In this document: positions 1 to 14,996 of the stretch, in pieces | Layout: each line of letters opens with the position of its first letter | Position numbering within the stretch: position 1 is the stretch's first letter | Virus record (IMG/VR): IMGVR_UViG_3300021440_000136 | Location: 1 to 21,514 of that record | Strand: one strand, 5' to 3' | DNA from: a virus | Length of the DNA stretch: 21,514 bases | Position numbers and translations under genes: made by a program | Notes under the pieces: generated by a model | What the model was told of the DNA's origin: nothing | Seen by the model: only the letters and a program-made list of their open reading frames with translations | The model's database searches: none

Positions 1-559
1 TTGGTGTTTGCGTCGGCTTGTAGACGCCCGGAGCCGTTTGCTCCCAGGTCAGCGTCGCGGGGTCTACCAGCCGAAGTTCGGTAGGCACGTAGGTCTTGTC
101 GAGCACCAGCTCGCGGGCCGTTCCGCCGCGAAGCAGCATCATGTATCGATCCTGCATGCAGAGATCGTCGACCGTCGGCTTGTTCGAATATCCAATGGTG
201 TAGTCGTTGTTGGTTGTCATCACGGCCAGAAGCTGTTGTCCGAGTGCGATTCCGTCCTGAGACGGCTCATCCTTCTCGTCATACGCCGTGACAATTGGAT
301 CCACCGAACCTGCGACTGACAGGAACGCGGTGATGGCTGCCGAAACATCCGGGTCGAAGTTCGCCAAGCTGGCAATCAGGGTTCGACTGTCGCTGGCAGT
401 CCGGCTCGAATAGAGGTCTTCAAGGTGCTGGCGGTAGGTTGGGGCCGACATTGTCGGATTGCTGCGCACGAAACCGGGCGTGGCCGACTTGCCACCTTTT
501 GCTCCCTTGCCCTTCGGCAGGAGAATGGTGCTCAGGCCGGTGAGAATGCTGTCTGCCAT
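1..559 (-). CDS. Phage portal protein (N-terminal part, runs off window)
   Basis: The reading frame is open on the minus strand from an ATG at 559 to the window edge, giving about 186 residues. The start has a good ribosome binding site (AGGAA) and lies inside the last 28 bases of the terminase gene, so the two are probably translationally coupled. The visible part has a flexible Gly/Lys-rich N-terminus, then the stretch DPDVSAAITAFLSVAG, and later RYMMLLRGGTARELVL followed by LRLVDPATLTWEQ and GVYKPTQ. This pattern resembles the N-terminal half of siphovirus portal proteins. A portal forms the dodecameric ring at the capsid vertex through which the terminase pumps DNA. Position directly after the large terminase subunit fits. 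The identity rests on remembered family patterns and gene order; the clip and wing regions are outside the window. Confidence 0.62.
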   Translation of the reverse strand, partial: MADSILTGLSTILLPKGKGAKGGKSATPGFVRSNPTMSAPTYRQHLEDLYSSRTASDSRTLIASLANFDPDVSAAITAFLSVAGSVDPIVTAYDEKDEPSQDGIALGQQLLAVMTTNNDYTIGYSNKPTVDDLCMQDRYMMLLRGGTARELVLDKTYVPTELRLVDPATLTWEQTAPGVYKPTQTP

Positions 560-2337
560 GTGTCAATTCCTGCAATGCGACCTTCGCCCTTGAGATTGCT
601 CTTGCCGCTGAAATTCAGAGCCGCATCGTGCGCGCTACCAAAAGGTGAGCAGAAGAACGAGGACGAAGTTGCCATGGTGGACAGCTGAGTTGCGAACATA
701 TGTTCGCTGACACGCCGTGCCAGAAGGTTGAATGCGATCGAGTGCATGAAATGGTCGTTGCCGGTGGTCTTCATCCACTCGGCCTGCTCGCTCTCACCCG
801 GCTTTTCGTTCCGAACCATGTCGGTCAGGTGTGCAATCAGCACCTCCCGCTGACCTCGGTAGCCTGAGAGAACCATTTTCCGGTGCTGCATCAGCGACTG
901 AACCCGATCGAGGATCAGGGTGTTGTTCGCCGAGTAGTGCGATAGAATCTTGGTGTCCGGTTCGGTGACCGGTTGCAGGGCGGCGTTGCCTCGATACTGG
1001 ATCGGGATGATCAGCCCATTGGTGGTGTCGCGAAGAGCATCAGCCTGCGGCGTATATGGGAAACGGTCGATGCAGCCCTGCACGATGTTGTAAATCTTGC
1101 ACAGCTCCTCAACGCGGCGCTCCAGGTAGGCCGCCGGGACGGTATCGAACAGAACGAAGACCGGAAAGCCGTCGTCGTCGTCGAAGCTGATGGTGATGTG
1201 GCAGGTGAAGCCGACGTCGATGCCGAGGTAGTACGGCTTGTCAGCCATGGCCTCTGGAATGCCTGCCGTGCCCTTCGCCATGGCCGCTTCGATGTCCGCT
1301 TTCTGGAGGCGGGCATCAGCTGCGGTATACTCCTCGCCGAGCACGGTGTTGTAGAAACCTCGTGTGAACGACTTCTCCTGATACTGAGCCAGCTGGCCGA
1401 AGATGTATGCCGGTCGGATACGACTCGTCGAGAAGGGTCGAACCTGATAGCCACGGAAATTGAGGCGGCTGGGAAACGTCGGCACCCACTCGCGAAGGTC
1501 TGGATTGCCCAGCTCCAAGCGCGCGCCACAGCGTTCGCACTTGACGTAGCAATCTTCGAGATCAAGCAAAGCGATCTGCTGAGCCGTCAGGTCGGTGAAC
1601 TCCTCGACATCGAAACGCTCGAAGTTGTTGACGTGAACGAAAGCCGGAGTGAACCGTGGGATTTGAAAGTGGCGGCAAGAGGAGCACCGGCACAGGTACT
1701 CCCGCTGGTCCGTCAGCTGATATTCCTTGTCGATGCCGTATCCTGCGAAGGTCGGGGTCGAGAACGATTGCGTGATCTGAACGTCGGAACCCTGCAAACG
1801 CGACTGATACAGACCGATGATCTCCTGAGGACTCAGGTCAAGTTCGTCGTGGAACAGGAAGTCGCAGCTCAAACTGGTGGCGTCCGCTTCCGTACAGCCG
1901 GTGATGTAGCCGAAGCTATCGCGAATCTGGATCTGATCACGCGAGCGGGTAGGTTTGCTGGCCGTCGGAGGATTGAACACCGAATCCTGTTCGAGGATCG
2001 GCTTGATGCGCCCGTTGTAGGTCTTGGTGAACATCTTCTCGTTCGGCATCGAGAAAAGACCGGCGATGCCGGTGCTGCGCGTCAGGATCGCGAGGAATTT
2101 GCGAATTTGAACCTCGGTCAGGCCGATCTGCGAACACTTCTTGACCGACAGCCGCTGGTGCATGTCGTCAGCAATCGCCTTCTGGAACTGGTAGTGCTCG
2201 AAAGAGAAGGGTCGCTTCTTGATCGTCGTGTTTGCACAGATCCAATCCCCCATAGATTGCGAGGCATTGACGTCGCCGAAGCGCATCTTGACGGATTGGT
2301 AAAGCTCTTCGAAGAGTGACATATCACGCGAAATCAC
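532..2337 (-). CDS. terL: Terminase large subunit (GpA-like ATPase/nuclease)
   Basis: The 601-residue length fits the lambda GpA-type large terminase family, the motor that drives DNA into the prohead and cuts it. Numbering from the GTG at 2337, an N-terminal ATPase region has a deviant Walker A (KKCSQIGLTE, residues 66-75) and a Walker B (FLFHDELD, D164/E165). Two CxxC pairs (C218/C221 and C267/C270) could bind zinc, as seen in GpA-type proteins. The nuclease domain starts near LGIDVGFT with acidic D374. An ATG at 2322 (MSLFEELYQ) is an equally good start; neither has a strong ribosome binding site. The gene follows the 70-aa gene and overlaps the portal gene by 28 bases. No frameshift or missing motif was seen. 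Confidence 0.88.
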   Translation of the reverse strand: MISRDMSLFEELYQSVKMRFGDVNASQSMGDWICANTTIKKRPFSFEHYQFQKAIADDMHQRLSVKKCSQIGLTEVQIRKFLAILTRSTGIAGLFSMPNEKMFTKTYNGRIKPILEQDSVFNPPTASKPTRSRDQIQIRDSFGYITGCTEADATSLSCDFLFHDELDLSPQEIIGLYQSRLQGSDVQITQSFSTPTFAGYGIDKEYQLTDQREYLCRCSSCRHFQIPRFTPAFVHVNNFERFDVEEFTDLTAQQIALLDLEDCYVKCERCGARLELGNPDLREWVPTFPSRLNFRGYQVRPFSTSRIRPAYIFGQLAQYQEKSFTRGFYNTVLGEEYTAADARLQKADIEAAMAKGTAGIPEAMADKPYYLGIDVGFTCHITISFDDDDGFPVFVLFDTVPAAYLERRVEELCKIYNIVQGCIDRFPYTPQADALRDTTNGLIIPIQYRGNAALQPVTEPDTKILSHYSANNTLILDRVQSLMQHRKMVLSGYRGQREVLIAHLTDMVRNEKPGESEQAEWMKTTGNDHFMHSIAFNLLARRVSEHMFATQLSTMATSSSFFCSPFGSAHDAALNFSGKSNLKGEGRIAGIDTWQTAFSPA

Positions 2338-5246: not shown

Positions 5247-5373
5247 ATTTGCCGTCTGAGGCCAGTCGTGGTGGAGGTCAAGGTCACTTTTCCTCAACCA
5301 GCGCCAGAAATATACCTGGTGTATGGTACAAAAACGCATTGTGTTCGAAATTCCAAGGGAGCAGACGAAACTC
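5247..5373. promoter_or_regulatory. Divergent intergenic control region
   Basis: This 127-base gap separates the leftward structural operon from the rightward replication genes, so promoters for both should lie here. No clear sigma-70 -35/-10 pair was recognised on either strand. The most notable sequence is the dyad at 5309-5325, which matches two sites at 10987 and 11140. A purine-rich AAGGGAG at 5355-5361 is the likely ribosome binding site for the gene starting at 5374. Confidence 0.5.
5309..5325. promoter_or_regulatory. Operator-like dyad, copy A
   Basis: The sequence AATATACCTGGTGTATG has the layout AATATAC, three-base centre, GTRTATK. It matches the perfect dyad AATATACCCGGTATATT at 10987-11003 at 14 of 17 positions. 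It lies between divergent operons, where a regulator could act on both. Binding of a phage regulator is inferred from the repetition and symmetry; no protein is shown to bind it. Confidence 0.5.
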
Positions 5374-5874
5374 ATGTCCAACTATCCGCAACTTCGAATC
5401 GTGGTCCTTCAGGGACTGCTCGCTCTCCGAGATCAGGTTCAGGCCGATCCGGAGTTCCTTTCAGCCCCCGAATGCCCCTACGATGAGGGCACAAAAGACA
5501 TTCTCACCCAGCTTTTTTCGGTGCGGACGGTCGAAAAGATCGTCGAGAAAGAGGTTCGGGTTGCCGAACGAGGCCGTCCGTCGAAGGACATTAAGCTGGA
5601 CAACGAGGATCAGCGAAAGGTTCTCGACGAAATCAAGAAGACCCTCGAACAGCTCAACAACATGACGATGGATGCGACGCTACAGACCGGCGAGCGGATC
5701 CAGATCGCCAAGACCAAGAGCGATCTGCTCGACAAGCTGCTCAAGATGATGGAGCGCCACACCACCGTGGCGCGCGTCGAGCAGTTCAAGGAAGCCGTGA
5801 TCGGCATCCTCAACGACTTGGTCAACGAGAAAGACCGAGACCTGTTTCTATCCAAAATCGATCCTTTGAGGTAA
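5374..5874 (+). CDS. Coiled-coil phage protein, possible terminase small subunit (166 aa)
   Basis: I start at the ATG at 5374 because an AAGGGAG lies upstream and an alternative ATG at 5323 overlaps the operator-like dyad. The protein has an N-terminal helical region (LRIVVLQGLLALRDQVQ), a central linker with VEKIVEKEVRVAERGRPSKD, then long amphipathic helices with high coiled-coil potential from about residue 75 to 130. The C-terminus has RVEQFKEAVIGILNDLVNEK. The GRPSKD linker and helical C-terminus resemble small terminase or other DNA-packaging accessory proteins, but there is no clear N-terminal helix-turn-helix. It is four bases from the primase gene and divergent from the terminase operon. 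Treat the packaging role as a weak guess. Confidence 0.55.
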   Translation: MSNYPQLRIVVLQGLLALRDQVQADPEFLSAPECPYDEGTKDILTQLFSVRTVEKIVEKEVRVAERGRPSKDIKLDNEDQRKVLDEIKKTLEQLNNMTMDATLQTGERIQIAKTKSDLLDKLLKMMERHTTVARVEQFKEAVIGILNDLVNEKDRDLFLSKIDPLR

Positions 5875-5878
5875 AATC

Positions 5879-8350
5879 ATGAGCATTTTCAAAGACAACG
5901 CCTCGCATTACTGGAATGCGGGCCTGCCAGTCATTCCTCTCAAGCGTTGGGACAGCCCTGCAAAGGGCGCAGGCAAGGCTCCGATCCTTCTCGAATGGAC
6001 GACCTACTCGGCGCACATGCCGTCCGAGGGCGTGCGCGCCGGATGGCTGCAGCAGTACCCCGAATCGAACATCGGCCTGCCCTTCGGCGAGGCTTCGGGT
6101 TTGTGTGCTATCGACATCGATACCGAGGATCAGACGCTGGTCGATGCCATTCTCGAAGCGTTGCCTCGCTCTCCGTGGAAGCGGGTCGGCAAAAAGGGCA
6201 TGGGGCTGATCTATCGCTGGCAGGGGCAACCCAACTTCAAGCTTCGCGATGGCAACAATCAATCAATTGTCGAATTCCTCGGCAAGGGCAACCAGATGGT
6301 TATGCCGCCCTCGATCCACCCGGATACGGGCAAGCCATACACGGCAAACGCAAACTTGTGGGACGTCCTCGACTCGATTCCCGCCCTTCCTGTAGACATC
6401 GAAGCTGTCTTGCGGCGGGCGCTGGGAGCAGTCCCCGGCTTGTCAATCGCCCAGACCGGCCGCTCTTCGCCGCTCAAGGTAGTTCCGGCTGGTGAGCGCG
6501 ACATCCAGATGGTGCGCCACGCCGGTTATCTGGCGCGGATCGTGCTCGGGATCGACAAGAATGAGCGTCGCCCTCTGTCCGAGGCCATGGAGCACATGCG
6601 CCACTGGGTCGAGGAATACACCGCGAAGAACGCTGGCGATGATATGGATCCTGAAAAGGGTGTGGCCAAGCTGGTAGAATTCCTGCTCAAGGATGTTGAA
6701 AAGGGTCGGACCCTGCCTGATGGGTGGGATACTGGGCTGACCGACGAGCAACGCGAACATCCGGCTATTGCCGAGATGATCAAGTACAACCAAGTTGCTC
6801 GCTGGACTATTGGCAAAGCAAAGGCGTGGCTTGTTGCCGAGCTGTCTGCCCAGCCGGGGGACCAAGACTTTGCCATGAGCAAAGTCATCGAGTTGGTAGA
6901 GCAAGTGGCCAAAGACGAGAATTTTCGCGAGTTCGAGATGAAGACCCTCGCTTCACAGATCAAGGACGATCTCAAGCGAACAATTCCTATTTCGAAGCCT
7001 GACCTCCTCAACCTGTTCAAGGAAGCGCGACGCGATGACACTGAGCAGGCTGCCGATCAGGAGGCCATTGCGCGTCAGGTCTTTGAGGAGATCAACCGTG
7101 GCGGCCAGCTGGCCTATGACAAATCGACGTTCTGGCAGTGGTCTGGCTCATGTTTTGAGCAGAAAGAAACCGAAGAGATCACCGCCACTATCGCTCGCGA
7201 TGTCAAGGGAAACCAATTGGCGCGTCGCCACGGCGATTACACCGCCATCACCAAGACGCTGGCGCTGATTGCTCGTGGGAAGGTGGGCGCGGAACTGGAA
7301 GATGGCGTCAACTTCGCCAATGGTTTCCTCGACGTGAACCTTGAGCTGCATGAACACTCGCCGAAGTACGGCAAGACGTTCACCATGCCGTTCGACTACA
7401 TCCCCGAGCGTGCCAGCGAGGCACACAAGTGGCTCGAATACCTTGAGACGTGCTGGGGCGACGACGAGGACTATTTCGACAAGGTGAACGCGCTGCAGGA
7501 AGCCTTCGCGGCGACCATGTTCGGCATCTCGTGGAAGTACCAGCGTGCCATTCTGCTCTACGGGCAGGCTCAGACGGGCAAGACCCAAGCTCTGAACGTG
7601 CTTCGCTCGATGATGCCGCCCAACTCGCAGTCGTCGGTTCCGCCGACCCTGTGGGGTGAGCGGTTCCAGCAGGCCCCGATGGTGAACAAGGCCCTGAACA
7701 TCTGCGGTGAGCTGCCCGAAGAGGCGGTCATTGACGGTCGGACTTTCAAGGAAATCATTGAAGGAACCGAGCAGAATACCGAGTTCAAAGGCACGGCCAT
7801 CTTCCAATACAAGCCCACGGCGGCGCAGTGGTTTGCATCAAACTTCCTGCCACGGACGCGGGACACTTCGAAGGGGTTTGTGCGACGTTGGCAGGTCTTC
7901 GAGTTCAGCCGGGTTGTACCGCAGGCCGAGCGGATCGTGAATTTCCACGAGATGCTCGTTGCTGAAGAACGTGAGGCTATCGCCGCATGGGCCGTGCAGG
8001 GGCTTCATCGCCTGCAGAAGCAGAACGACTACACTCAACCCAAGAGCCAGATCGAAGCGCTGGAACAGATCTCTCGGGCCAACAACAGTGTGGTCGCCTT
8101 CCTGATGACTTCGGACAAGGTTCGCCCGGAGGAGGGTCAGGCTGCGGACTCGCGAGCGGTGTTCGATTGCTACTGCGACCACATGAAGACTGTGAGCCGT
8201 GGCTATCCGGTGAGCTTCGAGCGGTTCAAGCAGATGGTTCGCGAGCTTGGCTATAAACTGCGCCCGTATGTTGACGGTGTCGGAGTCCACCGTGAGGAAG
8301 TCCTCGGGTTGTCGCTCAAGCAAGCTATTCTTGCAGGACTTCGCAGTTAG
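5879..8350 (+). CDS. Bifunctional DNA primase-polymerase/D5-like helicase (823 aa)
   Basis: This is a two-part replication protein. The N-terminal half is an archaeo-eukaryotic primase (Prim-Pol) domain of about 180 residues: it starts with the typical NAGLPVIPLKRWD, has a metal-binding IDID pair (D79, D81) and the second motif PPSIHPDTGKPY (S145, H147). The C-terminal half is a superfamily 3, D5-like helicase with Walker A GQAQTGKT (562-569), a Walker B-like ALNICGEL (E611), a sensor asparagine in WFASNFLPRT (N655) and an arginine finger candidate in GFVRR (R669/R670). It probably makes primers and unwinds the fork of the phage genome. The ATG is preceded by GAGGT overlapping the end of the previous gene. 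A strong terminator follows the stop. Both catalytic sites look intact. Confidence 0.9.
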   Translation: MSIFKDNASHYWNAGLPVIPLKRWDSPAKGAGKAPILLEWTTYSAHMPSEGVRAGWLQQYPESNIGLPFGEASGLCAIDIDTEDQTLVDAILEALPRSPWKRVGKKGMGLIYRWQGQPNFKLRDGNNQSIVEFLGKGNQMVMPPSIHPDTGKPYTANANLWDVLDSIPALPVDIEAVLRRALGAVPGLSIAQTGRSSPLKVVPAGERDIQMVRHAGYLARIVLGIDKNERRPLSEAMEHMRHWVEEYTAKNAGDDMDPEKGVAKLVEFLLKDVEKGRTLPDGWDTGLTDEQREHPAIAEMIKYNQVARWTIGKAKAWLVAELSAQPGDQDFAMSKVIELVEQVAKDENFREFEMKTLASQIKDDLKRTIPISKPDLLNLFKEARRDDTEQAADQEAIARQVFEEINRGGQLAYDKSTFWQWSGSCFEQKETEEITATIARDVKGNQLARRHGDYTAITKTLALIARGKVGAELEDGVNFANGFLDVNLELHEHSPKYGKTFTMPFDYIPERASEAHKWLEYLETCWGDDEDYFDKVNALQEAFAATMFGISWKYQRAILLYGQAQTGKTQALNVLRSMMPPNSQSSVPPTLWGERFQQAPMVNKALNICGELPEEAVIDGRTFKEIIEGTEQNTEFKGTAIFQYKPTAAQWFASNFLPRTRDTSKGFVRRWQVFEFSRVVPQAERIVNFHEMLVAEEREAIAAWAVQGLHRLQKQNDYTQPKSQIEALEQISRANNSVVAFLMTSDKVRPEEGQAADSRAVFDCYCDHMKTVSRGYPVSFERFKQMVRELGYKLRPYVDGVGVHREEVLGLSLKQAILAGLRS

Positions 8351-8356
8351 TGTTGC

Positions 8357-8403
8357 AAAAATGACGCACTAAGGCCTGGAAATGGTCTTAGTGCGTCATT
8401 TTT
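8357..8403. terminator. Strong bidirectional Rho-independent terminator
   Basis: A perfect 17-bp stem pairs 8357-8373 with 8387-8403, and three further pairs (one G-U) extend it to a 7-base loop at 8377-8383. The arms begin AAAAATGACGCACTAAG and end in a run of T, so an oligo-U tract forms on either strand. It lies six bases after the primase-helicase stop and cleanly closes that operon. Confidence 0.9.
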
Positions 8404-8734
8404 AAGTCAAAAAGTCGAAAAAATATGCAGAAATTGGGCGGCCATGATTGGACTATAGGGTCGAGTTTTGGGGTTAAAAATCGTGTTACCCTTGTGCTAA
8501 ATGCTTGTTTTTCAATGGTTTAAGCGTGTCAAGACACAAAAGGCAGGGCCTGGAGCTTTATTAGGCTATACGCTAGTCATAGTCTTTATATAGGCAAGAG
8601 GGGCGGCAGGCGAACCGATCGGCTAACCCTGCTCCGTAGCAGGGGGGAGAAGTGCGCCTTTGAGTCGCGCCCCTGCTGGGACTGGTCCCAAAACAATGCA
8701 ACTGCGGCAAGGCCGCTAATGAAAGGTTGATAAC
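8404..8734 (+). other. Long leader without a supported gene; several small stem-loops
   Basis: This stretch is AT-richer in its first half than the genes around it and holds no convincing gene. Visible structures are GTGTC-AA-GACAC (8526-8537), CCCTGCT-CCGT-AGCAGGG (8627-8644), the palindrome TGGGACTGGTCCCA (8677-8690) and GCGGC-AAG-GCCGC (8704-8716). The last one ends just before the ribosome binding site (AAAGG) of the gene at 8735. A TATATAGG at about 8588 could be part of a promoter but no matching -35 was found. It may be a structured 5' leader, an origin region, or both; the sequence alone does not decide. Confidence 0.4.
8677..8690. repeat. TGGGAC-YR-GTCCCA palindrome, copy 1
   Basis: TGGGACTGGTCCCA has two 6-bp arms around a TG centre. 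It lies 44 bases upstream of the start at 8735. The same element recurs at 9605, 9888 and 10018 and was not found elsewhere in the window. It may be an operator or a small dispersed palindromic element. Confidence 0.75.
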
Positions 8735-9490
8735 ATGACGGAACAAGCCAATCAGGCCCCGGCAACCGTTAAGGTTTGCGGTGCGGAATACGAATTTTCT
8801 GCGCAATCGTTCGGCGATGCCGTGGCGCGGTGGAAGGCGTCGCTTGTCGGCGCGGCAACTACGGTGGAAAACGCTGACAATCTGTTTGGCCGGACCGCGC
8901 TTGTCGCGCTGCTGTCTGGCACTGTCACCCCTTCCAATCTGGCGCTTGCGGCCTATGCCGCGTTCAATCCCAAGAGTGCCAAGGGCGACAAGTGCAAGCC
9001 CAAGCTGCAAGGCGATATGGTTCTGTCCGTATCGTCCCTGCGCAATGCCAAGGGCGGCGACAATGCGCGGAAAGCGCTTGACGCGCTTTGCGCTATTCAC
9101 GCCACCATGAACGGACAGACCGACGCCGACGGGGCAAACATCATGGCCCCGGCGGTTCTCGCTTTCGTCAACGGCGAAAAGGGCGCGGCCTCGTCCGTTC
9201 GCAAGCTGGCGGAAGTGCTGGCCAAGGCGGCGCTTGAACATGCCAAGGCCCTTGGCCTTGTGAACGACAATGATGAAGCGGCCAGCGATGCCAGCGAAGG
9301 CAAGCCCGAGGGCCAGACCGATGCCGCACCGGCCACCCTGTCCGATGCCATCCTTACGCTGGCGGCAACGCTGGAAAGCGCCAGCGATGCCGAATTGGCA
9401 ACGGTGGGCGATGAAATGGCTATCCTTTGGGAAGTCATCGGCGCGCGTTTCAACATCAGTGAGGGCGAAGGCGAACGCAAGGCGGCATAA
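8735..9490 (+). CDS. Unrecognised Ala-rich acidic protein (251 aa)
   Basis: I do not recognise this protein. The ATG at 8735 has an AAAGG ribosome binding site. The sequence begins MTEQANQAPATVKVCGAEYEFSA and is then helical and alanine-rich. The first 180 residues look like a compact helical domain, followed by an acidic linker (NDNDEAASDASEGKPEG) and a C-terminal helical segment with LSDAILTLAATLESASDAE. There is no membrane segment, signal peptide or known catalytic motif. It stands after a leader with the first TGGGAC palindrome and is followed by a stem-loop, so it appears to be its own transcription unit. Its codon choice (frequent CTT and GGCGAA) seems somewhat unlike the neighbouring phage genes, which would fit later acquisition, but this is an impression. 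Confidence 0.7.
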   Translation: MTEQANQAPATVKVCGAEYEFSAQSFGDAVARWKASLVGAATTVENADNLFGRTALVALLSGTVTPSNLALAAYAAFNPKSAKGDKCKPKLQGDMVLSVSSLRNAKGGDNARKALDALCAIHATMNGQTDADGANIMAPAVLAFVNGEKGAASSVRKLAEVLAKAALEHAKALGLVNDNDEAASDASEGKPEGQTDAAPATLSDAILTLAATLESASDAELATVGDEMAILWEVIGARFNISEGEGERKAA

Positions 9491-9507
9491 GCCCCGCCCC
9501 TAGCTAG

Positions 9508-9538
9508 TCCGGGCCTAGCCTATCCCGCTAGGCCCGGA
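9508..9538 (+). terminator. GC-rich stem-loop after the 251-aa gene
   Basis: A perfect 12-bp stem pairs TCCGGGCCTAGC (9508-9519) with GCTAGGCCCGGA (9527-9538) around a 7-base loop. It starts 17 bases after the stop of the 251-aa gene. No T-run follows, so it may be a weak or factor-assisted terminator or an mRNA-stabilising hairpin. Confidence 0.6.
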
Positions 9539-9604
9539 TTATGCCCCGCCCAGGTTTTCGGCCTGGCGCGGTCGTGCCCCCGCGCGCCCGCGACAAGCCT
9601 AAAA

Positions 9605-9622
9605 TTTGGGACTGGTCCCAAA
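9605..9622. repeat. TGGGAC-YR-GTCCCA palindrome, copy 2 (extended)
   Basis: TTTGGGACTGGTCCCAAA is part of a perfect inverted repeat that spans 9603-9624 with 10-bp arms and a TG centre. It lies 20 bases upstream of the ATG at 9645, between the preceding stem-loop and that gene, which is where an operator would be expected. Confidence 0.8.
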
Positions 9623-9644
9623 TTCTCAACCGGAGCAACGCCTA

Positions 9645-10142
9645 ATGCGCGCGCTTTCATCCACCCAAATCGGGGACGTTTTCACCGCCTTGCGCGACCG
9701 CCTGCCCAAAATCGGGCGCGAAGTCCGTTTCGCGGTCAAGCTGCGAACCGATTTTGACGGACCGATTGAACGGCCAAGCCGAAAAATCCCCAAGCCGCGC
9801 GCAATTCCCAAGAGCGACGCCGTCAAACACGCGGAGGCGCAACGCGCGGTGCTCAAGCATATTGAGCGCGGGATGCATTTCTCGAAATTTGGGACCAGTC
9901 CCAAATTGACCGTCAAACGGCCTGAAATCGCCCCCGCGCCAGTCCAGCGTCCGCCTGTGCTGCTCCTGACGGATCAGCGCAGCGACCGCCGCAAGCTCCT
10001 TCACCAGCCCGAAAATCTGGGACCAGTCCCAAATCAGGTGCTGGACCAGCGCATTGCGCAGATCAACGCCGCCATGGCCGTGCAATTCGGCCCGTGGCTC
10101 CCGCAACTGCAAGCCCTAGCCTATGAGGTGATCCGTGTTTAG
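9645..10142 (+). CDS. Unrecognised basic protein carrying two in-gene palindromes (165 aa)
   Basis: The ATG at 9645 follows a GGAG ribosome binding site; upstream codons would read through the palindrome and are not needed. The protein is basic and proline-rich in the middle (PIERPSRKIPKPRAIPKSD), suggesting nucleic acid contact or an extended linker. The C-terminal part has VLDQRIAQINAAMAVQFGPW. Two copies of the TGGGAC palindrome fall inside the gene and are read in different frames, giving FGTSPKL at about residues 82-88 and LGPVPNQ at about 125-131. I know no family for it. The in-gene palindromes suggest either small element insertions tolerated by a flexible protein or binding sites for its own control. 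Confidence 0.65.
   Translation: MRALSSTQIGDVFTALRDRLPKIGREVRFAVKLRTDFDGPIERPSRKIPKPRAIPKSDAVKHAEAQRAVLKHIERGMHFSKFGTSPKLTVKRPEIAPAPVQRPPVLLLTDQRSDRRKLLHQPENLGPVPNQVLDQRIAQINAAMAVQFGPWLPQLQALAYEVIRV
9888..9905. repeat. TGGGAC-YR-GTCCCA palindrome, copy 3 (extended, in gene)
   Basis: TTTGGGACCAGTCCCAAA lies in a perfect inverted repeat at 9886-9907. It is the exact reverse complement of copy 2 over the full 22 bases and sits inside the 165-aa gene, read as F-G-T-S-P-K. Confidence 0.8.
10018..10031. repeat. TGGGAC-YR-GTCCCA palindrome, copy 4 (in gene)
   Basis: TGGGACCAGTCCCA is inside the 165-aa gene and read as L-G-P-V-P-N, one frame off from copy 3. The flanks (AATC on the left, AAAT on the right) are a one-mismatch version of the 22-base palindrome of copies 2 and 3. 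Confidence 0.8.
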
Positions 10143-10266
10143 CATCTGGTCGATCAACAAGGCGCGTCCTCTGCGCCGCAAGCTCCCCAACTTCCGCCAA
10201 GCCTGTGACTTGGCCGACAAGCTGGAAAAGCGGACGGGCACGCCTCTGACCGTGGTGTGGCCGTGA
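10135..10266 (+). CDS. Small overlapping basic protein (43 aa)
   Basis: A GTG at 10135 with GAGGTG just upstream opens a 43-residue frame that overlaps the end of the 165-aa gene by eight bases and the start of the next gene by four. The product begins MFSIWSINKARPLRRKLPNF and ends LTVVWP. It is basic with a helical centre (RQACDLADKLEKRTG). No family is recognised. The tight overlaps on both sides and the ribosome binding site make it a probable real gene. Confidence 0.5.
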   Translation: MFSIWSINKARPLRRKLPNFRQACDLADKLEKRTGTPLTVVWP

Positions 10267-10481
10267 TCCCCGGCGCGAGCCTCGTGGGCCTGGGCATGGT
10301 CGTGGGCCTGGCGGTTGCCACGCCCCTGATGGTGTGGTGGCTTGACCGCAAAGGCGCGCGCGCCGAAATCTCCAAGCGCGATCAGGTCAATCGAAACAAT
10401 CGCGCTTTCTATGGCGCGATCGGCGAAAAGTGGTATCCCCATAGGAATGAGGACGGAACGACCAGCCACTATCCCACATGA
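10263..10481 (+). CDS. Small single-pass membrane protein (72 aa)
   Basis: Start is taken at the GTG at 10263, which overlaps the previous stop (GTGA); a GTG at 10257 would add two residues. Residues 2-25 (IPGASLVGLGMVVGLAVATP and on to LMVWW) form one clear membrane segment. A basic cytoplasmic-type flank follows (LDRKGARAEISKRDQ), then a polar tail ending in KWYPHRNEDGTTSHYP. This suggests an N-out or short-N topology with the basic side in the cytoplasm. Its role is unknown; a holin or spanin cannot be claimed from one segment without other lysis genes nearby. Confidence 0.6.
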   Translation: MIPGASLVGLGMVVGLAVATPLMVWWLDRKGARAEISKRDQVNRNNRAFYGAIGEKWYPHRNEDGTTSHYPT

Positions 10482-10482
10482 C

Positions 10483-10971
10483 ATGGGGGCAACCCTGCCC
10501 ACGGTCGCGCGCCTCACGGACTCCAGGTTCCGTCGGGCGCGCAAAGTGTTTCGATTGGATGTGGCCGACGCGGTTGAGTTGACCGCGTTTCTCCACATCG
10601 TGCCGCCCGAGTTCGCGCGGTGGATTTTCGGCTGGAAAAGGACCAGCGTGCTCGCGGCGAGGGAATTTCTCGCGGACCCACGGCTGAATGAGCTGGCTGC
10701 GCCGCTCGTCGTGGAGAACATCCACGCTTTGAGCGTGGACGTGGGCCTGGTGATCCTCAAAGCCATGCAAGAGGGCGGATGGCGCGCTCGTAACACCGCC
10801 CCCAAGATTGTGTTCGACACGATTGCGGAGCTTCGCGCGAATGGAATGCCCCCGGAGCAGATCGCAAAGGCCACCGGTCTGCGTGTGGAGACGGTGTGGA
10901 AGTGGTCGAGGCCAAAAACCAACCGGGCTGAAGGCCAGCGTGCTCGCGCTGCTGCTGCCTTGGTTGTCTGA
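10483..10971 (+). CDS. Protein with C-terminal helix-turn-helix (162 aa), possible regulator
   Basis: I start at the ATG at 10483, one base after the preceding stop; an upstream in-frame ATG at 10446 is possible. The N-terminal 110 residues are helical and basic (RFRRARKVFRLDV). Residues about 113-142 read TIAELRANGMPPEQIAKATG then LRVETVWKWSR, a good match to a resolvase/Hin-type helix-turn-helix with the pattern L-x-x-x-G-x-x-x-x-x-I-A-x-x-x-G. The gene ends just before the dyad-rich control region at 10977, so it is a candidate for the protein that binds those dyads or the TGGGAC palindromes. The fold is visible from sequence; the target is inference. Confidence 0.65.
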   Translation: MGATLPTVARLTDSRFRRARKVFRLDVADAVELTAFLHIVPPEFARWIFGWKRTSVLAAREFLADPRLNELAAPLVVENIHALSVDVGLVILKAMQEGGWRARNTAPKIVFDTIAELRANGMPPEQIAKATGLRVETVWKWSRPKTNRAEGQRARAAAALVV

Positions 10972-10986
10972 CGGTTATTTTTCTTC

Positions 10987-11003
10987 AATATACCCGGTAT
11001 ATT
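10987..11003. promoter_or_regulatory. Operator-like dyad, copy B (perfect)
   Basis: AATATACCCGGTATATT is a perfect dyad with 7-bp arms around CCG. It is preceded by TTTTTCTTC, which is also present next to copy C in mirror orientation. Confidence 0.6.
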
Positions 11004-11065
11004 TTTTCTCGGAGAGCGAGTGTGACATATTTATCACACTGATCTAAGTATATGATCTCTATATA

Positions 11066-11071
11066 TATAAT
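11066..11071 (+). promoter_or_regulatory. Possible -10 box for the accessory operon
   Basis: TATAAT at 11066-11071 is a perfect sigma-70 -10 hexamer lying between the two sets of dyads and about 95 bases before the first gene. The -35 position (about 11043-11048, TCTAAG) is a poor match, which could mean activator dependence. In such AT-rich DNA a chance match is possible. Confidence 0.35.
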
Positions 11072-11139
11072 CATGTATTTGGCTACCAATTTCCGAGAAA
11101 ATTTATCCTTCATAGTGGTAATTATGTCACACATTGGGA

Positions 11140-11156
11140 AATACACCGGGTATATT
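11140..11156. promoter_or_regulatory. Operator-like dyad, copy C
   Basis: AATACACCGGGTATATT is the reverse-sense copy of the dyad at 10987 with one arm mismatch. The surrounding 28-base arm ends inside the ATG at 11165, so a bound protein would also cover the translation start region of the first operon gene. Confidence 0.6.
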
Positions 11157-11164
11157 GAAGAAAA

Positions 11165-11509
11165 ATGAAATCTATGGAGGTGAAGGTGATCTCTCTGTGG
11201 CGCATTCAACGGAAGGATGAGCCGCGACGCGGCCCGTTCACAACACTGGTCCAGCCCGGCCATCCCGCTTGGGATAATCTCCCTCCTCCGTGCGAGGAGG
11301 GCCACGATCTCTCCCGTGGCTACGAGTTTTGCGCCTTCAAAAGCTTGGAAGACCTCCACGAGTATTTCCCGCCCGACGACCCTGTGTTAAGCCATCCGGA
11401 CTTCGAGGTGGTTGTGATCGAGGCGCGCCGAGCCATCATCCTTAACAACCAAGCCATTTTCCGCTGGGAACATGTCGAAAGATGGTCCCCAATCAACGAA
11501 GAGGAGTGA
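11165..11509 (+). CDS. Unrecognised protein, first gene of accessory operon (114 aa)
   Basis: Start at the ATG at 11165 or nine bases later at 11174 (MEVKVISLW); the first ATG overlaps the inverted repeat arm. The protein begins with strands (VKVISLWRIQRKDEP), has a proline-rich loop (NLPPPCEEGHD), and continues with YEFCAFKSLEDLHEYFPPDD and VVVIEARRAIILNNQAIFR. Mixed alpha/beta, soluble, no membrane segment. The phrase AFKSLEDLHEYF followed by VVVIEA resembles small phage proteins that display a parameter-like beta-alpha unit, but I cannot name a family. It leads the densely packed operon that continues to 16407. Confidence 0.65.
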   Translation: MKSMEVKVISLWRIQRKDEPRRGPFTTLVQPGHPAWDNLPPPCEEGHDLSRGYEFCAFKSLEDLHEYFPPDDPVLSHPDFEVVVIEARRAIILNNQAIFRWEHVERWSPINEEE

Positions 11510-11514
11510 AGATT

Positions 11515-11661
11515 ATGCGCATCACCATCGGACGCGGCCGCAACCGCATCAGCACCGAAGTCGCCACCGGCCCGCACATCGCCAAGGGCGAGCGCGAGAA
11601 GACCGCGTGGGATCTGAAGATGATCCTGTTCAATCGCGGCTACCTCAAGAGCCTCGCGTAA
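11515..11661 (+). CDS. Very small basic protein (48 aa)
   Basis: The ATG at 11515 lies five bases after the previous stop with GAGGAG upstream. The 48-residue product starts MRITIGRGRNRISTEVATG and ends ILFNRGYLKSLA. It is basic, with a short beta start and a helical end. Its stop overlaps the next start (TAATG). No family known; the operon fit and ribosome binding site support it as a gene. Confidence 0.55.
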   Translation: MRITIGRGRNRISTEVATGPHIAKGEREKTAWDLKMILFNRGYLKSLA

Positions 11662-12074
11662 TGCGCTGGCTGCGAAAGCGGCTAGCACCCTCGCCGTCCC
11701 AAATCCTCGTGGGCCTGATCGCGGACGATGTTCTGCGCCACGCCCACGAGTGGGACAATCTTCACCAACCGGCCAGGTTCTCCAAGGACTACCGCGTGAT
11801 CCGTCGCAAGGGCTACGCCTTGGAGTTTGTCGAATACGACTTCCACAAGGACGGACGTGTAACCGTCCACCCACAGCCGCTCACCAAGGGCTTCACGCTC
11901 GACAAGGACGAGGCCGAATTTCTCGGTAAGGCTCTGACGCAGGCCAAGCGGCTTTACCAAGCCGCCGTGGATGCCACCAAGGCGATCGAGGACGGTCTCG
12001 AAGCCAACGCCAAGGAAGCCAAGCGCCAGATGGCCGCGTGCGACGCAATCGAAAGGTTCATGACCCATGCTTGA
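11661..12074 (+). CDS. Unrecognised phage protein with helical C-terminus (137 aa)
   Basis: The ATG at 11661 overlaps the preceding stop. The N-terminus is basic (MRWLRKRLAPSPSQILVG) and could associate with membranes or nucleic acid but has no full membrane segment. The centre has beta character (DYRVIRRKGYALEFVEYDF), then a long charged helix region, KDEAEFLGKALTQAKRLYQA and onward to EANAKEAKRQMAACDAIERF. It overlaps the next gene by eight bases. No function can be assigned. Confidence 0.65.
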   Translation: MRWLRKRLAPSPSQILVGLIADDVLRHAHEWDNLHQPARFSKDYRVIRRKGYALEFVEYDFHKDGRVTVHPQPLTKGFTLDKDEAEFLGKALTQAKRLYQAAVDATKAIEDGLEANAKEAKRQMAACDAIERFMTHA

Positions 12075-12324
12075 ACATCTCAAAGCCCGGTGGCCCGAGG
12101 TCACCTTCGCCACGCACGAGACGCACCCATGGGCAAGCGTCACGTTCAAGGGCACGCGCCACAAGATCACCCTGACCATGCCGAACACGTCGGACTTCCT
12201 CTCGGAGCTTCCCGACCATGAGTTCCCGATGCTGGTCGCCGACGCCAGCGTGATTTACACCAACACCGACGTGGTGGGCGGCTACACGCAGGCCACCATC
12301 GAAATCCTGACCCTGGAGGACTGA
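12067..12324 (+). CDS. Small acidic alpha/beta protein (85 aa)
   Basis: The ATG at 12067 lies within the end of the previous gene and has AAAGG upstream. The product alternates strands (VTFATHETHPWASVTFKG, HKITLTMP, FPMLVADASVIYTNTD, ATIEILTLED) with a short helix near SDFLSELPD. This looks like a compact beta sheet fold. No family is recognised. It is followed after three bases by the 78-aa gene. Confidence 0.6.
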   Translation: MLEHLKARWPEVTFATHETHPWASVTFKGTRHKITLTMPNTSDFLSELPDHEFPMLVADASVIYTNTDVVGGYTQATIEILTLED

Positions 12325-12327
12325 ACC

Positions 12328-12564
12328 ATGAAAGTCACCGACCTTGAAAACGCCACCAAGCTCAAGGCTCGCTTCGATCGCATCACGGCGAAGCAGAAGG
12401 CGATCGAAGAACCCAAGCACGTCACCGTCTCGGTCGACAACTTCAAGTTCGACCTGAACGAGGCCAATCGTGCGCGCATCCTCGCCGTCCTGTCGAACCA
12501 GCTGGCGATGGAACACGCCACCTGCGCGGCGCAGGCGATCGACCTCGGCCTGGAGTTCGAGTGA
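12328..12564 (+). CDS. Small helical protein (78 aa)
   Basis: The ATG at 12328 has GGAGG upstream. The protein is a helix (LENATKLKARFDRITAKQKA), a short beta pair (HVTVSVDNFKFDL), then another helix (EANRARILAVLSNQLAMEHA). Helix-strand-helix proteins of this size with an N-terminal charged coil are frequent in phage early regions, but I cannot name a role. The next gene starts in its stop codon (TGATG). Confidence 0.6.
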   Translation: MKVTDLENATKLKARFDRITAKQKAIEEPKHVTVSVDNFKFDLNEANRARILAVLSNQLAMEHATCAAQAIDLGLEFE

Positions 12565-12890
12565 TGCCGATCAAGCTCCCTGACAACATGACTTTCCGCA
12601 ACGTGCTCGAACTCACGCCCAACGTGTGGGTGTGCGAGGGCACCCACGCGCAGCGGGTCACCGCCAACAGCGTTTGGCACACCTTCATCTACGCGCTCGA
12701 CAAGAAAGGCAGGACAATCCGGGTCGGCTCCACGCGCAATACGCGCCGCTGGGGGTCGCCTGTGATCCGAGCCGAGGTGTGGGGAGTCCCCTCGTCCACT
12801 CAGGACTACATCAGCATGGAGTGTGCAACGACCCAAATGGACGTCGCTGCCCGCTTCCTCACAACCCTCGCCAAGGAGTTTTGGCCGTGA
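12564..12890 (+). CDS. Unrecognised protein, possible paralogue of the next gene (108 aa)
   Basis: The ATG at 12564 overlaps the preceding stop. The product has several aromatic strands (NVWVCEGTHAQRV, VWHTFIYALDKKGRTIRVG, AEVWGVPSS) and a C-terminal helix ending AARFLTTLAKEFWP. The last segment resembles the end of the following protein (HFLIYAAKKFWI), and both place a VWH/IWY pair early in the chain, so the two may be diverged duplicates. No function known. Its end overlaps the next GTG start. Confidence 0.6.
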   Translation: MPIKLPDNMTFRNVLELTPNVWVCEGTHAQRVTANSVWHTFIYALDKKGRTIRVGSTRNTRRWGSPVIRAEVWGVPSSTQDYISMECATTQMDVAARFLTTLAKEFWP

Positions 12891-13267
12891 CCCAACCCAC
12901 CGAAGGCCCTATCCATGAACGCTGGGGTCCATACATTCGCAACATCCAGCCGATCGACGGCACCCCTCTGTTCATCGCCGACGCCTGTCGCGGTGTGAAG
13001 GGCAAGGGACGCATCTGGTATCCATTGATCCTCGCGCCCAACCCCAACGCGGGTAAGCCGAGCTGGATCAATGGTCCGCCCCAAGGCGAGTGGCTGAAAA
13101 TCGGTTGCGTCAAGGAGGCCACCGGCTGTCGCCAAGGCCTGCTTAAAGCCTCGCTTTATGGCCGAAAAGACCCGGTCAGCGACACCTGGTGCCGGGTCGA
13201 AGCCTTTCTGCCGGACTCGGAAGCCGTCCACTTTCTGATCTACGCCGCCAAGAAATTCTGGATCTAA
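12887..13267 (+). CDS. Unrecognised protein, GTG start (126 aa)
   Basis: The frame opens with GTG at 12887 (MTQPTEGPIHERWGPYI) with AAGGAG upstream; an earlier in-frame start would lie deep in the previous gene. The centre has RIWYPLILAPNPNAGKPSWI and a Cys/Gly segment (IGCVKEATGCRQG). The C-terminus is FLPDSEAVHFLIYAAKKFWI. It shares a weak terminal pattern with the gene before it. Soluble alpha/beta; no known motif. Confidence 0.6.
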   Translation: MTQPTEGPIHERWGPYIRNIQPIDGTPLFIADACRGVKGKGRIWYPLILAPNPNAGKPSWINGPPQGEWLKIGCVKEATGCRQGLLKASLYGRKDPVSDTWCRVEAFLPDSEAVHFLIYAAKKFWI

Positions 13268-13280
13268 CAGGAGAACTACC

Positions 13281-13487
13281 ATGATCGCATCCCCCTACGC
13301 CACCGAACGCACCAAGGCCCAGATGGAAGGCCGCGCCGAGCGCGAGGCTTTCCAGAACCACAACGGCAAGCCCTTCCGCACCAAGGCGCAGAAGCGCATG
13401 GCGCGCGAGCACGCCGAGGAGGGCCGCGACGGCGCGTGGCGGAGCTTCGCGCCCGTCAGCTACCACCCGATGCCGAAGACCAACTGA
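13281..13487 (+). CDS. Small highly charged protein (68 aa)
   Basis: ATG at 13281 with AGGAGAA at good spacing. The protein is rich in Lys, Arg, Glu and Gln (RTKAQMEGRAEREAFQNHNG, then RTKAQKRMAREHAEEGRDG) and looks mostly helical and hydrophilic; the RTKAQ motif occurs twice. It may be disordered alone or bind nucleic acid. No family recognised. The next gene begins in its stop codon. Confidence 0.6.
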   Translation: MIASPYATERTKAQMEGRAEREAFQNHNGKPFRTKAQKRMAREHAEEGRDGAWRSFAPVSYHPMPKTN

Positions 13488-13693
13488 TGGTTCCCGCTGT
13501 CAACATGCGCAACGCGCTCATCGCCGCCCATAACCGGGGCAAATCCAACATCTGCATCCAGGACGTTCTCGGCAACACCACGAACGTCCGCATCGAATGC
13601 GTCACCGACGACGCCATCTCGTGCGTGACCGAGCAGGGTTCCGTGCGCCTGATCCATTTCCACGCGATTGTGTGGATCGAATGGATCGCCTAG
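13487..13693 (+). CDS. Small Hfq/Sm-like candidate (68 aa)
   Basis: The ATG at 13487 overlaps the previous stop (TGATG). The 68-residue protein has a short N-terminal helix (MRNALIAAHNRGKS) followed by about five strands: NICIQDVLGN, TNVRIECVTDD, AISCVTEQG, SVRLIHFHAI, VWIEWIA. The order resembles Hfq, where NALRRERVPVSIYLVNG is followed by five strands and a final YKHAIST motif; here HFHAIVWI takes that place. Hfq proteins are ring-shaped RNA chaperones that bind small RNAs. The similarity is by eye, key Hfq residues such as the Q8 and Y55-K56 equivalents are not clearly kept, and other small barrels would look alike. Confidence 0.5.
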   Translation: MVPAVNMRNALIAAHNRGKSNICIQDVLGNTTNVRIECVTDDAISCVTEQGSVRLIHFHAIVWIEWIA

Positions 13694-13803
13694 CGGCACT
13701 CGCGGCACTGACAAAGCGGCCTTCACCACCCAAGGTGGAGGCCGTGCCGCGCCCGACCGTCGTCGCCAAGGTCCAAGACCCAACGAAGGACTTCAACCCA
13801 TGA
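13681..13803 (+). CDS. Very small overlapping protein (40 aa)
   Basis: An ATG at 13681 inside the end of the Hfq-like gene opens a 40-residue frame that ends in the ATGA start of the next gene at 13800. The product begins MDRLAALAALTKRPSPPKVE and is then proline- and valine-rich. It contains an 11-bp inverted repeat at the DNA level (13717-13727 with 13734-13744). There is no clear ribosome binding site, so coupling to the upstream gene would be required. Support is only the exact overlaps on both sides. Confidence 0.4.
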   Translation: MDRLAALAALTKRPSPPKVEAVPRPTVVAKVQDPTKDFNP

Positions 13804-14996
13804 CCAAGATCGACTGGACCAAACCCATCGAACTCGATGATGGGACGCCGCTGATCGCCAGCGACACCGGCGAAACCTACCACGTCGACATTCGCACGGT
13901 AGCGGGCGTCCGACATTCCGCTTTTCCGTCGAGCACCCACGGCAAGGGAAGCGCTCGACGTGACACAGGGCTGGTGATCAGCAATCACAAGTTCCGTGTC
14001 CGTAACATCAGCCGTCGGACGATCGACCTGTCGTTCCAGACCCTCGACCGTGTCACCTGCACCGAGTTCCCCGGCGAGTGGCAGATCGAGAAGATCGAAG
14101 GCCCCTATTTCACCCTCAAGAACCGCAAGGGTGAGACCGCAGGGAACCTGCAAGCGCACCATCTCAAGTTCGCTTGCCACAACCACGATGCGCCGTTCAC
14201 GACGATCAGCTGCGACCACGCCGAGGACTTCGCCGATGGCTATCAGTCCGGCTTGGCGATCGGTCTCACCGGTGACTTCTACCAAGCCGGAGGGCCTGGT
14301 GGCGTCAAACTCAACAAGCCGGGCGTAACTTGTCGGCACTACAAGGAGCACGACGAAATCGATGCGGCGCGCAGCAAGTCGTGGCGCGAAGGCTGGCGCA
14401 AAGGCCAAGACGACGCGCGAACGCCCAAGATCGACTGGACCAAGCCGATCGAGGCGCTCGGCAACAACGGAAAGGCTGTGCCTGCCAAAGTCGTCCGCTC
14501 GACGGCCCCTGCCGCGCGCGAAGTCTTTGTCGACGGGAAGTCCTACGAGTTCAACAATCTCGGCGGCATGATCCCGCGCAACTTCGATTGGGTGATCCGC
14601 AACAAGGGCACGCTGCAGCGCACCGGCTACGGCATCTTCGGCCAGACCCACACCAGCCTGTTCGACACGCTGGAAGAGGTCAGCGCACACTGGTGGAAGA
14701 CGCGCGATCCCGCGCGAGGCACCAAGCAGCTGAGCGGCGAGTTCATCGTCCGCCTGGAGCAGGAGCGCGACACCGGCCATGATCCGTGGACCACGATCAG
14801 CACCAGCGGGCCGATCGAGCCGCTTCCCGCACCGCCGGTTGTTGATCACGTTTACCAAGCCACTGGCCGGGGTTACGTGTGGGGATCGGTGTTCACCAAC
14901 GAGGCCGACGCACGAAAAACGTGTGCTCCGGTGGAAGGTATCGCCAAGGTCACCCGCACCGATGGCAAGGTAACCGCTGTGGAGTTTCTGCCATGA
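13800..14996 (+). CDS. Phage protein with duplicated IDWTKP module (398 aa)
   Basis: ATG at 13800 overlaps the previous stop. The motif KIDWTKPIE appears at residue 3 and again at residue 210, and 17 bases are identical at the two places. IDWTKP followed by a Gly/Asp turn and a strand pair is a frequent start of small phage proteins of unknown function, so this looks like a fusion of two such modules. Between them is a region with HHLKFACHNHDAPFTTISC, ADGYQSGLAIGLTGDFYQ and SKSWREGWRKGQDDA; the His/Cys cluster could bind metal, and SWREGWRKGQ is a helix often found in phage Rmf/CrpP-like small proteins. The C-terminus ends GYVWGSVFTNEADARKTC plus strands. Function unknown. Confidence 0.7.
   Translation: MTKIDWTKPIELDDGTPLIASDTGETYHVDIRTVAGVRHSAFPSSTHGKGSARRDTGLVISNHKFRVRNISRRTIDLSFQTLDRVTCTEFPGEWQIEKIEGPYFTLKNRKGETAGNLQAHHLKFACHNHDAPFTTISCDHAEDFADGYQSGLAIGLTGDFYQAGGPGGVKLNKPGVTCRHYKEHDEIDAARSKSWREGWRKGQDDARTPKIDWTKPIEALGNNGKAVPAKVVRSTAPAAREVFVDGKSYEFNNLGGMIPRNFDWVIRNKGTLQRTGYGIFGQTHTSLFDTLEEVSAHWWKTRDPARGTKQLSGEFIVRLEQERDTGHDPWTTISTSGPIEPLPAPPVVDHVYQATGRGYVWGSVFTNEADARKTCAPVEGIAKVTRTDGKVTAVEFLP

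Follow-up and report, generated by a model that had tools for sequence, protein, structure and literature searches.

A direct terminal repeat (DTR) is generally accepted to be made by cutting a concatemer at fixed sites with staggered nicks, after which extension synthesis duplicates the repeat (PMC5557969). Beyond T7, the duplication of terminal repeats of kilobase length by phages is poorly understood. For T7, a hairpin that includes the terminal repeat has been reported to arise during infection (PMC4281155), and for N4, inverted repeats and hairpin priming of DNA synthesis at the 3′ end have been described, with the right end preferred (PMC3896407). Among the ~80-kb siphophages related to the DNA examined here, termini were obtained from reads with PAUSE for Seuss (PMC4591317) and with PhageTerm for Lumi (PMC9959647) and EAb13 (PMC10508131); the records of fJoAci01 and fJoAci04 also name PhageTerm as the source of their termini. 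The ends of JWF and 2-1 were taken as recorded, and the DTR boundary of 2-1 was computed from the positions of its repeated genes. In these isolates, the DTR lies just downstream of the primase gene and measures 1.47–2.30 kb, with exact repeats of 1748, 1466, 2298 and 2177 bp at the record ends of Seuss, JWF, Lumi and EAb13, respectively.

The stretch of DNA analysed here in full (hereafter, the window; 21,514 nucleotides) is a 21.5-kb virus record representing a fragment of an ~80-kb phage, probably virulent, related to Seuss, JWF, Lumi and EAb13. Its terL and primase operon are divergently arranged and encode proteins homologous to those of the Seuss/JWF/EAb13 type, in which it was therefore placed. 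The terminase large subunit is GpA-type (phrog_675; 532..2337, minus strand), and the Prim-Pol/DUF5906 primase (5879..8350, plus strand) served as the anchor for comparisons. This primase matched those of ~80-kb contigs at 63%–68% identity and, at 31%–39%, those of the isolates Caulobacter phage Seuss, Achromobacter phages JWF and 2-1, Xylophilus phage Lumi and Acinetobacter phages EAb13, TCUP2199, fJoAci01, fJoAci04 and Mystique. Between the two genes, a 183-aa protein (phrog_30421; 5323–5874), conserved in the relatives examined, is a candidate small terminase subunit. A perfect 17-bp hairpin with a T-run immediately past the primase stop (8357–8403) is a likely terminator just ahead of the predicted DTR start. 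The first gene of the predicted DTR (8735..9490, plus strand) encodes a 251-aa product related solely to that of a gene at the equivalent position in L007, and the window also encodes an operon of small genes. A gene for a DNA-binding protein with a Hin/resolvase-like HTH at about residues 108–142 (10483..10971, plus strand) is located directly 5′ of the element described below, and the first early-region gene after the element (11165..11509, plus strand) is phrog_1106-like, with no function assigned. Foldseek and family searches with the 10483 product returned HTH matches only and no TerS match; its predicted fold gave no confident structural hits, and neither a single-protein search of IMG/VR nor a search of phages gave a match.

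A repeat search of the window ranked one separated inverted repeat first, with a score of 25 against a maximum of 13 when the same DNA was dinucleotide-shuffled 60 times. Its outer arms (left, 10977..11004, plus strand; right, 11139..11166, minus strand) are 28 nt long, complementary at 27 of 28 positions and spaced 134 nt apart. Each holds a 17-bp dyad with ACCCGGT in the middle, namely AATATACCCGGTATATT at 10987–11003 on the left and the imperfect AATACACCGGGTATATT at 11140–11156 on the right. Thus, the 28-base arms with a single mismatch and their operator-like dyads, as given in a preliminary description of this DNA, were confirmed, and so was its characterisation of the region as a strong AT-rich outlier. 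The repeat region is the lowest-GC stretch in the window (0.27–0.29 vs. 0.595 for the window), with the minimum in an AT-rich core flanked by the arms (11043..11091), and when folded as single-stranded DNA it reached -38.8 kcal/mol, compared with -14.7 ± 3.3 for shuffles (z = -7.2). Two further inverted pairs lie inside the outer arms: an imperfect inner pair, GTGTGACATATTTATCACAC / ...ATGTCACAC (11020–11042 / 11110–11132; 23 nt, 83%), which scored 12 against the shuffle maximum of 13, and a third pair, TTTTCTCGGA / TCCGAGAAAA (10999–11013 / 11092–11106; 15 nt, 87%), whose centre is shifted by ~19 nt. Taken alone, both interior pairs are near chance. The description of the pairs as sharing nearly the same centre applied to two of them (11071.5 and 11076) but not to the third (11052.5). 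From the outside in, the pairs follow the order A-B-C in the left half but A-C-B in the right half, and because the interior pairs are swapped, one simple hairpin cannot pair all three.

This element is probably the right-end concatemer-processing (terminus) site of an ~80-kb long-DTR phage rather than a gene switch. What the analysis shows directly is the repeat itself, its conserved position, its dyads and, in relatives, that it coincides with mapped DTR ends. When separated inverted repeats were scanned in a 15–23 kb stretch per phage (loop >15, span ≤260), the first-ranked repeat bracketed the DTR right end in Seuss, JWF, EAb13, fJoAci01 and fJoAci04. The repeat bracketing the DTR end of 2-1 ranked fifth, and the top-ranked repeat of Lumi was found 26 bp from the DTR end, wholly within the DTR. 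Across four lineages, the fractions of positions that were as good (within 30 nt) were 0.009, 0.018, 0.029 and 0.024 (combined p = 9e-5); the Acinetobacter phages are not mutually independent cases. Nothing comparable was found at the opposite DTR end in five isolates. The distance from the mapped end to the arm varied, from ~2–3 nt (Acinetobacter phages) through 8 (Seuss) and 17 (2-1) to 54 (JWF), and the arms of the mapped isolates do not share the window dyad. Given that the DTR ends of T7, SPO1 and N4 had no comparable repeat and that of T5 only a weak one, the inverted repeat is not something that DTR phages have in general.

One contig end resembled these mapped termini. Contig L050, which is 99.7% identical to L049 at the contig end, stops at L049 position 9164, eight bases ahead of the right arm, and the mapped DTR end of Seuss is likewise 8 nt before the right arm. 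This single stop could be a terminus or, alternatively, an assembly break. Other contig ends did not fit termini (L010 and L101), and neither did those of L053, which ends within a local repeat, and L058, which ends 34 nt beyond the outer edge.

The same region might instead be read as a replication origin beside the genome end, in which the AT-rich core acts as a DNA-unwinding element between initiator dyads. The core does sit between paired dyads, the inverted repeats at the 3′ end of N4 have been reported to start DNA synthesis (PMC3896407), and GC-skew extremes lie near the element in both the window and JWF, where the cumulative skew maximum (~79 kb) is beside the DTR end at 80.1 kb. However, an origin alone leaves unexplained why, in four lineages, read-mapped ends lie within the repeat or adjoin it, and the window element has no iteron array. 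The sign of the GC skew flips around the repeat, in line with the skew check suggested in the preliminary description, but skew also tracks gene orientation and is shaped by genome ends, and therefore it does not single out an origin. We consider this reading unlikely.

The primase alignment yielded 78 viral loci and eight loci in genome assemblies, and group members in bacterial assembly contigs include L113 (Sphingopyxis flava NZ_FUYP01000011) and L117 (Burkholderia paludis MSh1). In the 32 loci with enough downstream sequence, the lowest-GC 100 bp past +800 from the primase was located and the surrounding 360 bp was tested. A significant inverted repeat was present at this AT dip in 30 of the 32 loci, some of which are closely related, so that these are not 30 independent cases; the window has a separated inverted repeat at the dip downstream of its primase (score 25 vs. 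13). The repeats of L004 and L098 were weak (p = 0.23 and 0.26), the best-scoring repeat at the dip was a different pair in L069 and L008, and the repeat in L071, L075 and L008 was not obviously of the same kind. The longest arms measured 62 nt (L055), 54 (L056), 48 (L044), 45 (L051), 41 (L047) and 35 (L086), and the others 10–33; although their position is conserved, arm sequences differ between phages. A blastn search with the element against phages and plasmids gave nothing, and no copies of the exact arm in IMG/VR, or of the element in the remainder of its own record, were found. Many arms contain a dyad resembling TACCCGGTA or TGACCWGGTCA. The dyad WKACYNRGTMW occurred 21 times within 60 nt of the elements, in 18 loci, against 0.57 expected, a 37-fold enrichment that is descriptive because the motif was derived from these same elements. 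A recurrent core like ATTCATCCGYCTT...AAGAAGAAG...TATATATAGGG was also observed between the arms, ahead of the right arm, in the elements of L049 (8958–9207), L055 (14915–15170), L051 (14409–14654) and L064 (15164–15384), and might contain a promoter or the region that is cut.

Such dyads would also suit an operator or promoter hub of the early operon, bound by a regulator, for example the 10483 HTH protein, with the closeness to the DTR end being incidental. Their enrichment, the early genes beginning right behind the element and an HTH gene adjoining the element in five phages are consistent with this possibility. Homologs of the 10483 HTH protein were found in L004, L005, L008 and L009, followed in each case by the AT-rich minimum of the locus, and the minimum in L004, L005, L007 and L009 contains an inverted repeat with a TTACCCGGTAA-like core. 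With up to one mismatch, TACCSGGTA occurs just 3–5 times per 21–22 kb locus, and a pair is found within the element of the window, L004, L005, L007 and L009, whereas the L032 element has four exact copies (spacings 153, 75, 76, 81 and 78; 76/82/61 in L032). In L032, however, the element precedes the HTH gene, that is, it lies on the opposite side, and the HTH gene was not found in L007; this reversed order indicates that the gene need not adjoin the element on one given side. Arms of up to 62 bp exceed what an operator pair needs, a scan of the window element for a sigma-70-like promoter found none, and the mapped ends of relatives are bracketed by the repeat, which makes a regulatory hub quite improbable. 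The two functions envisaged in the preliminary description, a phage origin with initiator sites and a master switch controlled by two proteins, were not supported as stated, since the comparisons tie the element to the packaged chromosome end; its interpretation as a whole is only partly supported and needs changing.

A protelomerase site, an attP site or a MITE-like mobile insertion would account for the terminal-inverted-repeat appearance, the integrase-family genes in some relatives and the presence of several relatives inside bacterial genome assemblies, but the position of the element is conserved while its sequence differs per phage, and we regard this reading as very improbable. As individual candidates, an N15-type telomere (telRL) was rejected on finding a telomere resolvase (ResT-TelK_cat) in 0 of 12 records, among which the window record is a fragment and those of several relatives are near full size; attP was rejected on the absence of an integrase from the window and four close relatives, and a MITE or insertion element on a single occurrence with no further copies having the same ends.

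A left terminus block, CGAAAAAATATGC ... CGTGTTACCCTT (8416..8493, plus strand), is predicted after the primase, with the first base of the predicted DTR at ~8447. An A-rich box followed by CGTGTTACCCTT ~60 nt later occurs once after the primase in all seven window-clade loci (7/7), and GTG[CTG][TC]ACCCT has a single match after the primase in each of 20 loci. The block CGTGYTACCCTT after the primase agrees by spacing with mapped DTR starts: a TAC.CTT-like box, a match noticed after the fact, has an offset of +39 to +41 relative to the mapped start in Seuss, Lumi, 2-1, EAb13, fJoAci01 and fJoAci04, and is off in JWF (+52). Since a profile of the window-clade left block recovered none of the DTR starts of the isolates, this correspondence is no more than suggestive, as is the placement of the window DTR start near 8447 by box spacing. 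In the window clade, the box and the repeat are ~1.7–3.4 kb apart, which is similar to the measured DTR lengths. Terminus-like elements occur at both sites in the window, and the DTR predicted from the sequence between them spans about 2.7 kb (8447..11130); its right end would fall within 11110..11138, with a best guess of ~11130 based on the geometry of Seuss and L050.

The palindrome TTGGGACYRGTCCCAA has four copies in the window (8676, 9606, 9889 and 10017), all confined to the predicted DTR, against 0.19 expected. Each phage has a perfect palindrome of its own (TTGGGACYRGTCCCAA, CTTAAAYRTTTAAG, GATAAACWGTTTATC and TTGGGAAWWTTCCCAA) in 4–5 copies, nearly all in or beside the predicted DTR of an 80-kb genome (window, 8676–10032; G001, 11568–14480; G002, 21374–23577; G005, 44327–45662; G003, 11012–13942), with weaker copies also elsewhere in the G003 genome. 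These palindromes are probably operators of the terminal-repeat genes. Proteins encoded by the DTR genes of different groups showed no detectable homology, except in three pairings (window with L007, L004 with L005/L008/L009, and JWF with 2-1).

For the right-end terminus site, we infer a nick-and-fill step in which the chromosome end of the window phage would lie at the repeat. Two inverted arms, many with a dimer-site-like dyad, would flank the AT-rich core and could be bound by terminase or its small subunit. The packaging machinery would cut the concatemer by nicking inside the core, giving the right end, and a second nick at the block after the primase (~8447) would give the left end. The ~2.7 kb between the nicks would then become the DTR, with extension synthesis that starts at the staggered nicks completing the copies.

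A hairpin might also be used in this process. We tentatively propose that the nicked strand folds back into a hairpin and primes synthesis through the terminal repeat, such that one arm is copied from the other. The arms are long (up to 62 bp) and near-perfect, yet phage-specific, and fold-back therefore fits them better than protein binding alone. In the Acinetobacter group (L023, L025, L026, L029 and L037), C-G, T-G, T-A and C-A all occur at one arm position, and no covariation evidence for compensatory change between the arms was obtained; because arm positions vary independently in this one close group examined, we consider fold-back possible but doubtful. The four combinations look as though the halves to the left and right are reshuffled by recombination at the DTR end. 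If true, fold-back would make the terminus self-correcting, for which we found no description in long-DTR phages.

A description of the family-wide element was likewise not found in the papers retrieved and read from full-text searches of the open literature. A recognisable, conserved terminus element could make chromosome ends in this group predictable from sequence alone, including in metagenomic contigs without reads. In addition, two arms and an AT core provide a compact DNA substrate on which models of nicking and of hairpin formation could be examined, using relatives that can be cultivated, for example Seuss.

Among known systems, phages of the T7/T3 type share fixed-site concatemer cutting and extension synthesis with the mechanism proposed for the window. 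However, T7 belongs to an unrelated phage family and has a 160-bp repeat whose boundary lacked a separated inverted repeat in our scan, and whereas a hairpin intermediate has been reported for T7, the window shows folding potential only (z = -7.2). N4 resembles the window phage, as predicted here, in having a DTR and inverted repeats at one of its ends, but its morphology is different and its DTR much shorter. In the left 3 kb of N4, no comparable long inverted repeat was found near 390–440 bp, where the DTR length presumably places the boundary. The cos site of lambda combines a cosN of rotational symmetry with R sites that bind gpNu1, and the element, if it is cut by terminase as proposed, would resemble it in its two-fold symmetry and in the protein sites on either side; in contrast, lambda has 12-base cohesive ends rather than kilobase DTRs, and the window has only a candidate small terminase subunit. 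The ~80-kb siphophages Seuss, JWF, Lumi and EAb13 share with the window the order terL, primase, DTR (predicted in the window) and early genes as well as a homologous primase (31%–39%), and have an inverted repeat at the mapped DTR end (26 bp away in Lumi). Their arms are unrelated in sequence to those of the window, whose clade has the TACCCGGTA dyad and the CGTGTTACCCTT block in addition.
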